Below, piece by piece: positions 46,812-51,697 of a stretch of 64,000 nt of DNA. A program made the position numbers and the translations under genes. The notes below the pieces were generated by a model that was given only the letters and a program-made list of their open reading frames with translations, searched no databases and was not told the DNA's origin. Numbering within the stretch: position 1 is the stretch's first letter; every line of letters begins with the position of its first letter. Source of the stretch: Candidatus Desulforudis audaxviator MP104C (lineage in GTDB: Bacteria; Bacillota; Desulfotomaculia; Desulfotomaculales; Desulforudaceae). The stretch lies in assembly GCF_000018425.1 (NCBI RefSeq), contig NC_010424.1:2248501-2312500 (forward strand), written 5' to 3'.

Positions 46812-48041
46812 TCAGCGCCCGCCGGCCGCCGTTACGCTGTCCGCCGTACGGCCGCCGGAACCGGAATTCCGGTACCGGTTCACAAACCGGTTCATCCGTT
46901 TGAAAGCTTCCGTCAGGTCCTCCACCGAGGCGGCGTACGAACAGCGGATAAATCCCTCGCCGCATTCGCCGAACGCGTTCCCGGGCACCACGGCCACTTT
47001 CTCCTCCCGGATCAGGCGCTCGGTGAACTCCTCGGACGAAAGCCCGGTGCAGCGGATGTCCGGAAAGGCGTAGAAGGCGCCCCCAGGGTTGAAGCACGGG
47101 AGGCCCATATCGTTGAACGCCTTGACCACCAGCCGGCGCCGGTAGGAAAACTCGCGCACCATGCGCCGCATCTCGTCCTGCCCGTGCCGCAGGGCCTCGA
47201 GCGCCGCCATCTGGCTCATCACCGGCGCGCAGAGCATGGTGTACTGGTGAATTTTGGTCATGGCCCCGATGAAGTCGGGATTGCCCAAGGCGTAGCCGAT
47301 ACGCCACCCGGTCATCGCAAAAGCCTTGGAAAAACCCTGGAGCAGGATCGTCCGGTCGCGCATCCCGGGCAGGGTGGCGAAGCAGACGTGTTCACCCTCA
47401 TAGGTCAGCTGCGCGTATATCTCGTCGGCAATCACCACCAGGTCCCGAGCCGCACAAAGCTCGGCAACAGCCTCGAGTTCCGCCCGCGGCATAACCGCAC
47501 CCGTGGGGTTATTGGGAAAACAGAGCAAAAGCACCTTGGTCCGGGGCGTGACCGCCCGTTCCAGGTCTTGGGCCCGGACCCGGAAACCCCGCTCCACGGT
47601 TGAGGGCACGGGTACCGCCACCCCCCCGGCCAATTCACTGCAGGGCTGGTAGGAAACGTAACACGGTTCAGGCACCAGCACCTCGTCCCCGGGGGCGACC
47701 ACTGCGCGCAACGCCAGGTCCAACGCCTCACTCACCCCGACGGTGACCAGCACCTCGTTTTCCGGACAGTACTTCAAACCCAGATAGTCGGCGGTGTAGC
47801 GGGTGATTTCCCGCCGCAGCGCCAGTATCCCGCTGTTGGCGGTGTAGGCGGTGTAACCCTGTTCCAGGGCGAACATGCACGCCTCCCGCACATGCCAGGG
47901 GGTGACAAAATCCGGCTCGCCAACGCCGAGCGAAATGATCCCCTTCGTCTCGGCCGCCAGGTCGAAGAACCGGCGGATCCCGGACGGCTTTATCCTCCGG
48001 ACGGTGGGGTTCAGTTTGTCCGCCCACACACCATCAGTCAC
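46812..48041 (-). CDS. Class I/II PLP aminotransferase
   Basis: 409 residues. PLP Lys in LLQGFSKAFAMTGWRIGYALG, Asp in VIADEIYAQLTYEG, and FPNNPTGAVMPRAEL plus SLGVGEPDFVTPWHV are typical of the aspartate/alanine aminotransferase group (PatA, AlaT). Overlaps the lrp-type regulator by 4 bp and is under the T-box upstream, so it probably makes or uses the amino acid sensed there. If the specifier reading below is right, alanine is the best guess. Confidence 0.9.
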   Translation of the reverse strand: MTDGVWADKLNPTVRRIKPSGIRRFFDLAAETKGIISLGVGEPDFVTPWHVREACMFALEQGYTAYTANSGILALRREITRYTADYLGLKYCPENEVLVTVGVSEALDLALRAVVAPGDEVLVPEPCYVSYQPCSELAGGVAVPVPSTVERGFRVRAQDLERAVTPRTKVLLLCFPNNPTGAVMPRAELEAVAELCAARDLVVIADEIYAQLTYEGEHVCFATLPGMRDRTILLQGFSKAFAMTGWRIGYALGNPDFIGAMTKIHQYTMLCAPVMSQMAALEALRHGQDEMRRMVREFSYRRRLVVKAFNDMGLPCFNPGGAFYAFPDIRCTGLSSEEFTERLIREEKVAVVPGNAFGECGEGFIRCSYAASVEDLTEAFKRMNRFVNRYRNSGSGGRTADSVTAAGGR

Positions 48042-48526
48042 GGCGACACCACCAACCTCCGGTCGTCTTCCCCGTCACCCAACAGGACCCCCTCTTCCTT
48101 GAAGGTCTGGAGCACAAAGTGGGTGGTGGTGCCGGTCACGCCGTCGAGCGGGGCCAACTTGGTGGCCACGAAGTTGGCCACCTCTTTCATGGTCCGCCCC
48201 TCAACGAAAACGGCCAGGTCATACGCGCCCGACATCAAATATAGGTTCTTCACTTCCGGGTAGCGGCCCACCCGCTTGGCGATGGCCTCAAAGCCCACGT
48301 CCCGCTGGGGCGTGACCCGGACCTCGATCAGGGCCAGCACCCGTTCCTTGCCGACCCGGTCCCAGTTGACCATGGTCCGGTAGCTCAGGATGGTGTGGTT
48401 GGCTTCGAGGTCGGCGATGATCCGCTGCACCTCGGCCACCGGAAGGTCCACCATCGTGGCGATCTGGGCGGCTTCCAGGCGGCAGTTGTTCGCCAGAAGC
48501 TCCAAGATCTCGATTGTTTTGTCCAT
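48038..48526 (-). CDS. Lrp/AsnC-family transcriptional regulator
   Basis: 162 residues: an N-terminal winged helix (LANNCRLEAAQIATMVDLPVAEVQRIIADLEANHTILSYRTMVNW) and a C-terminal amino-acid-binding RAM domain (RVLALIEVRVTPQRDVGFEAIAKRV; LMSGAYDLAVFVEGRTMKEVANFVATKLAPLDGV). ATG 48526 follows GGGAGGAG. Co-transcribed and coupled to the aminotransferase, and probably an autoregulator. Confidence 0.92.
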   Translation of the reverse strand: MDKTIEILELLANNCRLEAAQIATMVDLPVAEVQRIIADLEANHTILSYRTMVNWDRVGKERVLALIEVRVTPQRDVGFEAIAKRVGRYPEVKNLYLMSGAYDLAVFVEGRTMKEVANFVATKLAPLDGVTGTTTHFVLQTFKEEGVLLGDGEDDRRLVVSP

Positions 48527-48559
48527 CGGCTGCTCCTCCCTCTTGATAAGCATCTCGGA

Positions 48560-48822
48560 AATGTAAAGGCGCCCTCCCCCCTCTTAAGGACGAGAGCGCC
48601 GATCTCGCGGTACCACCCTAATTGGCCGGTGCAAAACCGGCCCACTCTTCCCGTTAACGGCGGGACCCGGGAGTGCTTCCGCGGGCTCAATTACCCGCCT
48701 CGCATCCGGCTCCGGGACGGCACAGGCGCCCTTCCCACCGGGCTCACACCGGTTCCCGGCTCGCTGTGGGGGAACAAAACGCCCTTATTCCCTTCGTTGC
48801 CTTTGATCTAAAATTATATATG
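48560..48822 (-). promoter_or_regulatory. T-box riboswitch
   Basis: Minus-strand leader with the invariant T-box AGGGTGGTACCGCG (48619-48606). It is preceded by a stem III hairpin (GGCCGGT/CACCGGCC) and followed by a terminator hairpin beginning GGCGCTCTCGTCC and ending GAGGGCGCC before TTTACATTT. A long stem I is upstream, with the terminal-loop region CAGCGAGCCGGG ... GGTGTGAGCCCGG. The specifier loop I would place at TGTGCCG, giving GCC (Ala) as the codon; this assignment is tentative. Controls the lrp-aminotransferase operon in response to uncharged tRNA. Confidence 0.92.
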
Positions 48823-48828
48823 CTTAAG

Positions 48829-48857
48829 AACCTAGCACCTGTCATCCGATTTGTCAA
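48829..48857 (-). promoter_or_regulatory. Promoter of the T-box operon
   Basis: TTGACA (48857-48852), 17-base spacer, TAGGTT (48834-48829). Position fits a start near 48822, right at the beginning of the leader. Confidence 0.7.
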
Positions 48858-48899
48858 GGACCAATGAGGCCCAGCTCTAGTTGTAGGAAGAATCAAACC

Positions 48900-48927
48900 A
48901 AATAACTTCTCCCAAATAACTTCTCCC
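48900..48927. repeat. 14-bp tandem duplication
   Basis: AAATAACTTCTCCC twice in a row, in the 309-bp AT-richer stretch between the T-box promoter and the methyltransferase. I see no gene there. Confidence 0.85.
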
Positions 48928-49179
48928 GATTTGCAGGATAACTTGGCCCGCTGTAGAAACGATTTTTATTTGTAGTAAGATTGTGCTCCAACTACATACA
49001 AAGGGGTGTCCGTATGTCTGTCAGGCAATGCTTCAGAACCTCTGAAGCGATAAGGCCGATCAGGTTAGCCACAGGCAACTGGACCACCGGCTTAGGACCG
49101 GGTTGCTCGGGATCAGTCGCCCCTTCTAGGGGCACAAGGAGCACCCGGTTTATTCTTGGATGTAGGGAGGTTCGGATTA

Positions 49180-50295
49180 ATGAAATCCGGTGGTTCGTAC
49201 ATATTTAATGACCGGCTTGTATATCGCAATCAAGAAGAGTATGTTGTGGTTGATAGGCCAAAGGTAGTTCAATATATTGATGCAGCCATGAATCAGCCAG
49301 ATCTAGATGGTTTTCGAAAACATATTACGAACCTCAAGCTGGCGTTAGAAAACCCAGATGAAGACCTGATCACTTCTAATGGCCAGGGTTTCTCCTTGAG
49401 GCTAGAGCCTTTCCTGACTGATATTAAACAAATACTTGACGCCTACACCCTTGAGCGAGCACGGTACTATGCAGAGCGGTTGAAGAAGGGTTTGTCTGAA
49501 GTCAAGACTACCAAAGTCAACGACATTAACGTCCGGCGCTGGAAAGACTATGATGAAGTTTTTACTGACAGCCTCTGGAACATAAACCGTCGCGACAGTT
49601 CAGGTGCACACCTGGGGTGGTACTGGGGCAACTTCATCCCACAGATCCCGCATCAGTTGATGCTGCGATATACCAAAAAGGGTGAGTTAGTCGTCGACCC
49701 GTTTCTAGGTAGCGGCACCACTTTGATTGAGTGCCGTCGCCTCGGCCGTCACGGCCTCGGCGTGGAACTCAATCCAAAAACGCTCCATAAAGCCAGAGAA
49801 CTGGTGGAGGCCGAAGAAAACAGGCACAACGTCATAACACGGTTGATTGTCGGCGACAGCAGGGTTTTTGATTTCGAAGCCGCAATACGGGCGATGGGGT
49901 TTTCGGCCATAGACTTATTACTCATGCATCCTCCATACCACGATATCATCCGTTTTGGCAGCGATGAAAACGATCTTTCCAACGCAAAAAGCACGAGAGA
50001 TTTTCTCCACATGTTCGGAGAGGTACTGGATAATACTTTACCCCTACTGCGAAAAGGCCGTTATCTGGGCATTGTAATCGGCGACAAGTACAGTCAGGGA
50101 GAATGGATTCCTTTGGGTTTTTATTGCATGCAAGAAGCAATGAATCGCGGACTTTCTCTTAAGAGCATCGTTGTCAAGAACTTCGAGGAAACAAAGGGGA
50201 AACGCAATCAAAAAGCATTATGGCGTTACCGTGCCTTGTTGGGTGGTTTCTACGTCTTCAAGCATGAATACATCTTGGTACTTAGGAAAGTTTAG
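49180..50295 (+). CDS. DNA N4/N6 methyltransferase, apparently solitary
   Basis: 371 residues on the opposite strand to its surroundings. SAM motif I is VVDPFLGSGTTLIECRRLGRHGLG near residue 175, and the catalytic motif IV is LLMHPPYHDI, with His-Pro-Pro-Tyr rather than Asp/Asn/Ser-Pro-Pro-Tyr. Motif IV follows motif I, so it is a beta- or gamma-like order. The gene is clearly AT-richer than its neighbours, with AT-rich codons. ATG 49180 lies 9 bases after GGGAGG. No restriction gene is within reach, so it is an orphan or a remnant of a transferred system. Target sequence unknown. Confidence 0.85.
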   Translation: MKSGGSYIFNDRLVYRNQEEYVVVDRPKVVQYIDAAMNQPDLDGFRKHITNLKLALENPDEDLITSNGQGFSLRLEPFLTDIKQILDAYTLERARYYAERLKKGLSEVKTTKVNDINVRRWKDYDEVFTDSLWNINRRDSSGAHLGWYWGNFIPQIPHQLMLRYTKKGELVVDPFLGSGTTLIECRRLGRHGLGVELNPKTLHKARELVEAEENRHNVITRLIVGDSRVFDFEAAIRAMGFSAIDLLLMHPPYHDIIRFGSDENDLSNAKSTRDFLHMFGEVLDNTLPLLRKGRYLGIVIGDKYSQGEWIPLGFYCMQEAMNRGLSLKSIVVKNFEETKGKRNQKALWRYRALLGGFYVFKHEYILVLRKV

Positions 50296-50323: not shown

Positions 50324-51697
50324 TCAGATGGTCAGCGTCCCCTCCGCCGTCTCCACCACCTGGAGAATCTTCTCCCGCCGCCCGTTCCCGGCGTTGACGT
50401 ACACCAGGTATTCGTTGCCGACCCTTTCGCCCCTGATTTCCCAGGCCAGGGCCTCCCCACCACCGGTTGTGGGAATGAGCACCAGGCGGGACGACCGGAC
50501 TACAAAGTCCGGGTTGAGACCCCGGCGGGCGGCTTCGGCGGCACTGAGCGCGGGAGCCGGCAATTCCCGCGGCCGGTGGTACATCACGTAGTCCAGAGCG
50601 TTCAAACCGCTGACACGCCCCTGGTCCAGGGCCACCGTCACTTTGATCATGTCCGTGTACAGCAGGACGCCGTCTTGCCGCGGCACAAAGGCAAACATTA
50701 CCGTGCCCTCGCCCTGCTGCTCCGAGGACACCGCCTCCATGTCCGGCCGGCCCAATCGGTTCAAGTACTCCTCGGCCGCACGCCGCGCCTCGCTGACGGA
50801 CACCGCGGGCGCGCCGGGGGTTCTGGTGTCCAACATCCAGACCACTTCCCCGCCCCGCCGGGCCACGTCCACCAGAAACAACCGGTCACCATCGGGGTCG
50901 TTACGTTCCGCAACCTCCACCCGGTAAGACGGTATTCGGCCCTTGGTCGTCCCGGTTACCCGCGCCACCAATTCCCCTCGGGGCCGGTCAACCACGGCCA
51001 GCGCCCTTTCCCGGGCTTTTTCCTCCGTAGTGGGCGCACCGGTAGCGGCACGCGGCACGCGGCGGTCCATATGTTCCGAAAAGGCGCCGTCATAGACCAG
51101 TGTCGGAAACTGTTCCATCTCCCGGTTTACCGCCTCCAATGCGGTGCTCGCTGGGTCCGGCGGGGCCGGCCGGAGGGCGCCCCGGCGCGCACGCAACTCC
51201 GAAGCCAGTTCCCAGTACCGAGCACCGCCCGCCTCCACGCGGCGCTGCACCACCTGGAGTTGGGTGTTCAGGATGCCGGCCTGGCGGTGCAACTCCTCGA
51301 GCGTGTTCCACTGGTCCGGCGACGGGGGCCGGCCGGCAGCCACCTGCCGCATCAGGACGTTCGTGAACTCGCCTACCTGGTTTAGAAACTGGCTGGTCCG
51401 GCCGATGACCGCCGGCTGGACGGGGAGCTGGCTCAATTCCCGTTGGGCCAGGACGGCCTCCCGCCAGGTCTCCCCCAGCAGATCGGCGTCCTGGGGACTG
51501 CCGTCGCCGACCAGGACCTTGCCGAGGAGCACCTCCAGACCACGCACGTTTAGCACCGTGTCAAAAAAGGACCGCTGGTACTCGGCGTTGAGCAGGTTTT
51601 CGAGATGGCGTCGCGCACTCCACTGTTCAAAGGCCCAGGCGGAGACCACCGCCAGGACCGCCAGAGACACGAGCGCAACCAGCACGGGACGCTTCAT
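50324..51697 (-). CDS. ypeB: Germination protein YpeB
   Basis: 457 residues. N-terminal anchor (LVALVSLAVLAVVSAWAF), a helical N-domain, and three C-terminal PepSY-like modules (from about 240), ending in GGGEALAWEIRGERVGNEYLVYVNAGNGRREKILQV. YpeB is needed to localise and hold inactive the spore cortex lytic enzyme SleB, whose gene is next to it (41 bp upstream), the usual pairing. Confidence 0.93.
   Translation of the reverse strand: MKRPVLVALVSLAVLAVVSAWAFEQWSARRHLENLLNAEYQRSFFDTVLNVRGLEVLLGKVLVGDGSPQDADLLGETWREAVLAQRELSQLPVQPAVIGRTSQFLNQVGEFTNVLMRQVAAGRPPSPDQWNTLEELHRQAGILNTQLQVVQRRVEAGGARYWELASELRARRGALRPAPPDPASTALEAVNREMEQFPTLVYDGAFSEHMDRRVPRAATGAPTTEEKARERALAVVDRPRGELVARVTGTTKGRIPSYRVEVAERNDPDGDRLFLVDVARRGGEVVWMLDTRTPGAPAVSVSEARRAAEEYLNRLGRPDMEAVSSEQQGEGTVMFAFVPRQDGVLLYTDMIKVTVALDQGRVSGLNALDYVMYHRPRELPAPALSAAEAARRGLNPDFVVRSSRLVLIPTTGGGEALAWEIRGERVGNEYLVYVNAGNGRREKILQVVETAEGTLTI

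Follow-up and report, generated by a model that had tools for sequence, protein, structure and literature searches.

The lrp-aminotransferase operon of Candidatus Desulforudis audaxviator, a deep-subsurface sulfate reducer whose genome is one contig of 2,349,476 bases, is very probably controlled by a transcriptional, alanine-specific T-box riboswitch; we put the probability of this reading at about 0.9. The operon lies on the reverse strand of a stretch of 64,000 nucleotides from this genome, which is called the window here and to which all coordinates refer unless a locus is named. An earlier reading of the window from its letters alone, the original prediction, had placed a T-box upstream of an Lrp regulator gene and an aminotransferase gene, and this was borne out by a covariance-model match, an antiterminator/terminator pair and a Lrp/AsnC gene with an overlapping aminotransferase gene. 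When the window was searched with cmscan against Rfam, RF00230 (T-box) was the sole RNA family above its gathering score, which is 93 bits. The parts of the leader are as follows.

48829 to 48857, reverse strand: promoter of the extended -10 type, with TTGACA (48857-48852), a 17-nucleotide spacer with TGC at its end and TAGGTT (48834-48829).
48583 to 48806, reverse strand: T-box leader with Stem I, Stem II, IIA/B, Stem III and antiterminator (RF00230, 94.4 bits, E value 2.1e-19).
48719 to 48721, reverse strand: specifier codon GCC (alanine), with the purine G48718 next to it, placed by the RF00230 alignment.
48606 to 48619, reverse strand: T-box sequence AGGGTGGTACCGCG, matched by RF00230, whose UGGU is able to pair with the ACCA of tRNA-Ala.
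48584 to 48621, reverse strand: antiterminator, with helix A1 (UUAGGG/CCUUAA), the 7-nucleotide bulge UGGUACC and helix A2 (GCGAGA/UCUCGU), at -8.7 kcal/mol.
48559 to 48600, reverse strand: intrinsic terminator, a hairpin (48600-48568, -23.6 kcal/mol) followed by the tail UUUACAUUU.

The pairing of the antiterminator was assigned by hand over 38 nucleotides as two 6-bp helices flanking the bulge, and its letters run UUAGGG-UGGUACC-GCGAGA...UCUCGUCCUUAA. Antiterminator and terminator overlap and are mutually exclusive. In the mechanism that we propose, transcription of the leader would start at the extended -10 promoter, and when tRNA-Ala is charged, the terminator (48600-48559) would form and transcription would stop. 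Uncharged tRNA-Ala(GGC) would instead make two contacts, through its anticodon to the GCC specifier and through its ACCA end to the UGGU in the antiterminator bulge, a pairing that would allow the antiterminator to form and the operon to be transcribed, and more pyruvate would then be converted to alanine. A minimum free energy fold of the whole leader yielded a structure unlike a T-box and was not used. A general terminator scan did not list the hairpin of this leader, probably because its stem is long and mismatched and its T run is interrupted.

The promoter had been described as a consensus promoter. A promoter is indeed present and conserved, but its actual form is TTGACA followed after 17 nucleotides by a TG-extended TAGGTT, and the plain sigma-70 consensus scan of the leader reported none; a comparison of leaders was used instead. 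Of 52 orthologous leaders, 48 have the layout TTGACA-N17/18-TGnTAnnnT, versus a mean of 3.4 in shuffled sequences, and an alignment of the leaders of 7 close relatives also supports it. A TATAAT in the vicinity sits 33 nucleotides from TTGACA.

We compared the locus with those of other genomes, among which Desulforudis and Candidatus Desulfopertinax metagenome-assembled genomes are the nearest relatives of the host. Of 55 relatives with the Lrp gene that were scanned by cmscan, one was dropped because a contig end cuts its leader (L070), and 51 of the remaining 54 carry a T-box upstream of lrp, which argues that its presence there is not due to chance. The lrp T-box is conserved across the order to which Desulforudis belongs. 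The two genes themselves form a widespread operon: in a set of 135 loci, taken from relatives and from named genomes, every aminotransferase match adjoins the Lrp gene, lies after it and has the same orientation; a single locus (L166) gave no aminotransferase match. No Rfam match was obtained, even at an E value of 0.1, in 12 named loci that were negative for the search pattern and came from Bacilli, Chloroflexota and two Peptococcaceae-like genomes. In some Clostridia-like bacteria and Negativicutes, the regulator-enzyme pair would carry a tRNA-sensing layer that it lacks in Bacilli and Chloroflexota, a clean case of such a contrast. On a quick joined-protein tree of 78 rows, the presence of the T-box, called by nhmmer, requires three changes, for which one gain plus two losses would be one solution; as no root was inferred for this tree, the count cannot tell gain from loss. 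At one locus (L048, genome G040, approximately 1436-1500 of the reverse complement), the T-box is missing and the -35 region runs straight into the ribosome-binding site. L053 and L054, from the same genus, retain the T-box, and L048 represents either a deletion or an assembly artefact.

The specifier had been read as GCC (alanine), to be checked with a covariance model, and the RF00230 alignment places this codon and no other there, at the position where the model consensus is UUC. We calibrated this placement on the other T-boxes of the genome. In cmscan alignments, the columns that hold GCC here contain the cognate codons of two other leaders, UCC for a serine-pathway aminotransferase gene and AUC for ileS, and the same spacing gives ACC for thrS, UUC for a DAHP synthase gene and AUC for a branched-chain aminotransferase gene. 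The last three T-boxes fall below the gathering score and were read by motif and spacing rather than by covariance alignment, and their genes were named from translations judged by eye. GCC is unchanged in all 50 aligned orthologous leaders, with a purine after it in 44, and two more leaders that were missed by the search pattern also carry it by eye. The frame of the specifier is fixed by the leaders from Thermincola-like and Negativicutes genomes, 11 of which retain the canonical loop, AGUA on one side and GAA-[A/U]-GCC on the other. The genome contains tRNA-Ala genes with GGC, UGC and CGC anticodons, and the specifier matches tRNA-Ala(GGC), whose discriminator is A and whose 3' end, ...CTCCACCA, finishes in ACCA, fitting the UGGU of the T-box bulge. 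That the specifier also suits the downstream pathway depends on the assignment of the enzyme as AlaT-like. The two genes of the operon are the following.

48038 to 48526, reverse strand: Lrp/AsnC-family regulator of 162 amino acids, AlaR (YugG)-like (Pfam AsnC_trans_reg, 5e-17).
46812 to 48041, reverse strand: class I aminotransferase of 409 amino acids, probable alanine aminotransferase, AlaT/YugH-like (PRK07682, 4e-179; Pfam Aminotran_1_2).

The regulator contains PF01037 (AsnC ligand-binding) and HTH_24 (N-terminal winged helix), both above their cut-offs, and its orthologues adjoining an aminotransferase gene are 51 to 95% identical. The aminotransferase gene overlaps lrp by 4 nucleotides and is followed by argS and pyrG. 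Lrp-type regulators often regulate their own operon, and it is plausible that this Lrp protein would likewise act on the lrp-aminotransferase operon as a second layer of control. No palindrome common to the leaders emerged when the region upstream of the promoter was searched for an Lrp operator. The only enriched 7-mer in that region, ATGTAAA, was rejected as an operator; in the leaders bearing it, it looks by eye like the end of the reading frame of the upstream gene.

Several properties of the enzyme and of the leader weigh against an intact alanine T-box that feeds back on alanine synthesis. For the enzyme, PRK07682, which we take to be the YugH family, was the best among 77 NCBIfam models, but its score of 595 bits lies below the curated cut-off of 620 (an Anoxybacillus orthologue reaches 736 bits, above it), and among solved structures the nearest are that of an aromatic aminotransferase from Pyrococcus (1DJU) and those of aspartate aminotransferases. 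Both observations would fit an operon whose T-box is alanine-specific but whose aminotransferase acts mainly on another substrate, such as aspartate or an aromatic amino acid, and has alanine as an amino donor or a side product. We consider this unlikely, since the AlaT (YugH) of Bacillus subtilis also has 1DJU as its nearest solved structure (PMC6522883) yet is the main alanine aminotransferase of that organism (PMC12893347, citing Sidiq et al. 2021). The best profile and the operon layout both fit a Bacillus-type AlaT, so that the enzyme of the host probably makes alanine, and the suggestion that an alanine specifier would suit an alanine aminotransferase is supported. Because the enzyme resembles AlaT in profile and nearest structure, an alanine T-box would be sensible as feedback on the alanine supply.

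For the leader, the terminator has an interrupted T run, and the RF00230 alignment contains two deletions, of 3 and 2 nucleotides, exactly at the AGUA and GAA of the specifier loop. The loop-E/S-turn (AGUA/GAA), looked for as a mark of membership in the RF00230 T-boxes, is thus absent from this loop. Stem II also lacks GAA/AGUA and reads GAG/GGAA; a motif test found the pair in the Stem II of 24 of 52 lrp leaders, the one in the window not among them. The loop-E/S-turn is present in the specifier loop of most T-boxes (PMC4695836), and the Stem I S-turn, a geometric element located above the specifier, keeps tRNA modifications from causing a clash (PMC7583486). It is common but not strictly defining, and with both S-turns off consensus, resemblance to T-boxes does not guarantee function. 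The leader of the host could accordingly be a degenerate, nonfunctional T-box, which we regard as very unlikely: the specifier, the bulge, both antiterminator helices, the terminator and the promoter are all intact in the window, and relatives without the specifier-loop S-turn likewise retain specifier, T-box and promoter. Unlike the 11 canonical leaders from Thermincola-like and Negativicutes genomes, those before lrp in the Desulforudis order show no AGUA/GAA pair when read by eye, with one (L036) having a 5' AGTA but no GAA. A simple motif test of 78 other T-boxes from 13 genomes of this order found AGUA retained in 63, and in the other 15 the specifier position reads AUC (12) or GUC (3). 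These 15 are L006, which is upstream of a branched-chain aminotransferase gene, L224, L233, L234, L239, L240 and L245 to L253. We see about an even chance that Desulforudis and its order have a structural variant of the alanine T-box, one that has lost the S-turn, with a specifier loop reduced to approximately 4 by 6 to 7 nucleotides, and that retains the specifier, the T-box bulge and the antiterminator. If so, the tRNA would be decoded with a different internal-loop geometry, and a loop of this kind, provided that it functions, would put to the test how far T-boxes depend on the canonical decoding geometry. The AUC/GUC T-boxes of the same order, including that of the branched-chain aminotransferase gene, lack AGUA as well. 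We found no description of S-turn loss in the literature searched, which did not include the main T-box surveys. This loss is the less expected part of an otherwise known mechanism and the one that most deserves work at the bench.

A specifier one base further on, CCN, by which the operon would respond to tRNA-Pro, is permitted by GCCN, all four CCN codons encoding proline, and by the discriminator A of the genome's tRNA-Pro that was examined, so that UGGU does not separate proline from alanine, but it deserves hardly any credence, given that CC is preceded by G in every one of the 50 aligned leaders while the base after GCC varies (31 G, 13 A, 4 C and 2 T), that the serine-pathway and ileS codons occupy the GCC columns with the other three T-boxes fitting that spacing, and that the canonical orthologues show GAA-N-GCC-R.

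Some further features of the window were noted near the operon and elsewhere. An orphan DNA methylase gene (N6_N4_Mtase) lies at 49156-50295 on the forward strand, between the lrp promoter and a gene at 50324-51697; its G+C content is 46.8%, compared to 61.8% for the window. Several relatives seem by eye to have the end of a similar gene immediately upstream of the lrp promoter, so that the region may be an insertion. A tandem 14-nucleotide repeat, CCAAATAACTTCTC, is present in two exact copies at 48898-48925. ARAGORN reported a tRNA-Ile(tat) of 101 nucleotides at 439-539 on the forward strand, where an Rfam tRNA search of the genome found nothing, and this call is probably false.

The alanine T-box of the lrp-aminotransferase operon represents a known mechanism with a sensible and mostly expected target, conserved in one bacterial group, and it suggests what the aminotransferase and the Lrp regulator, both so far unassigned, do in a widespread group of anaerobes. 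A full-text literature search for a T-box with Lrp or AsnC returned no paper; an earlier listing in Vitreschak 2008 or Gutierrez-Preciado 2009 is possible. In B. subtilis, alaR-alaT (yugG-yugH) resembles the host operon in having an Lrp-type gene followed by an aminotransferase gene of the same family, a layout that orthologues of the Bacillaceae type share. Unlike the host, the Bacilli orthologues that were scanned here, which did not include B. subtilis itself, have no T-box. Anti-TRAP acts on an RNA-binding regulator rather than a DNA-binding one. A T-box listed upstream of its gene (PMC2494555) is like that of the host in directly controlling a regulatory protein of its own amino acid pathway, although the amino acid is tryptophan rather than alanine. 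The Lrp gene would be a direct target of the T-box, as the original prediction held, but the surprise that it attached to this is reduced by the anti-TRAP precedent and by the wide occurrence of the lrp-aminotransferase operon. The alaS T-boxes of B. subtilis and Clostridium acetobutylicum (PMC4695836) share with the lrp leader an alanine specifier, a UGGU facing the ACCA of tRNA-Ala and transcriptional antitermination, the last of these predicted for the host; they differ in that their target is alanyl-tRNA synthetase and their specifier GCU, whereas here the target is lrp-aminotransferase, the specifier is GCC and the loop has no S-turn.
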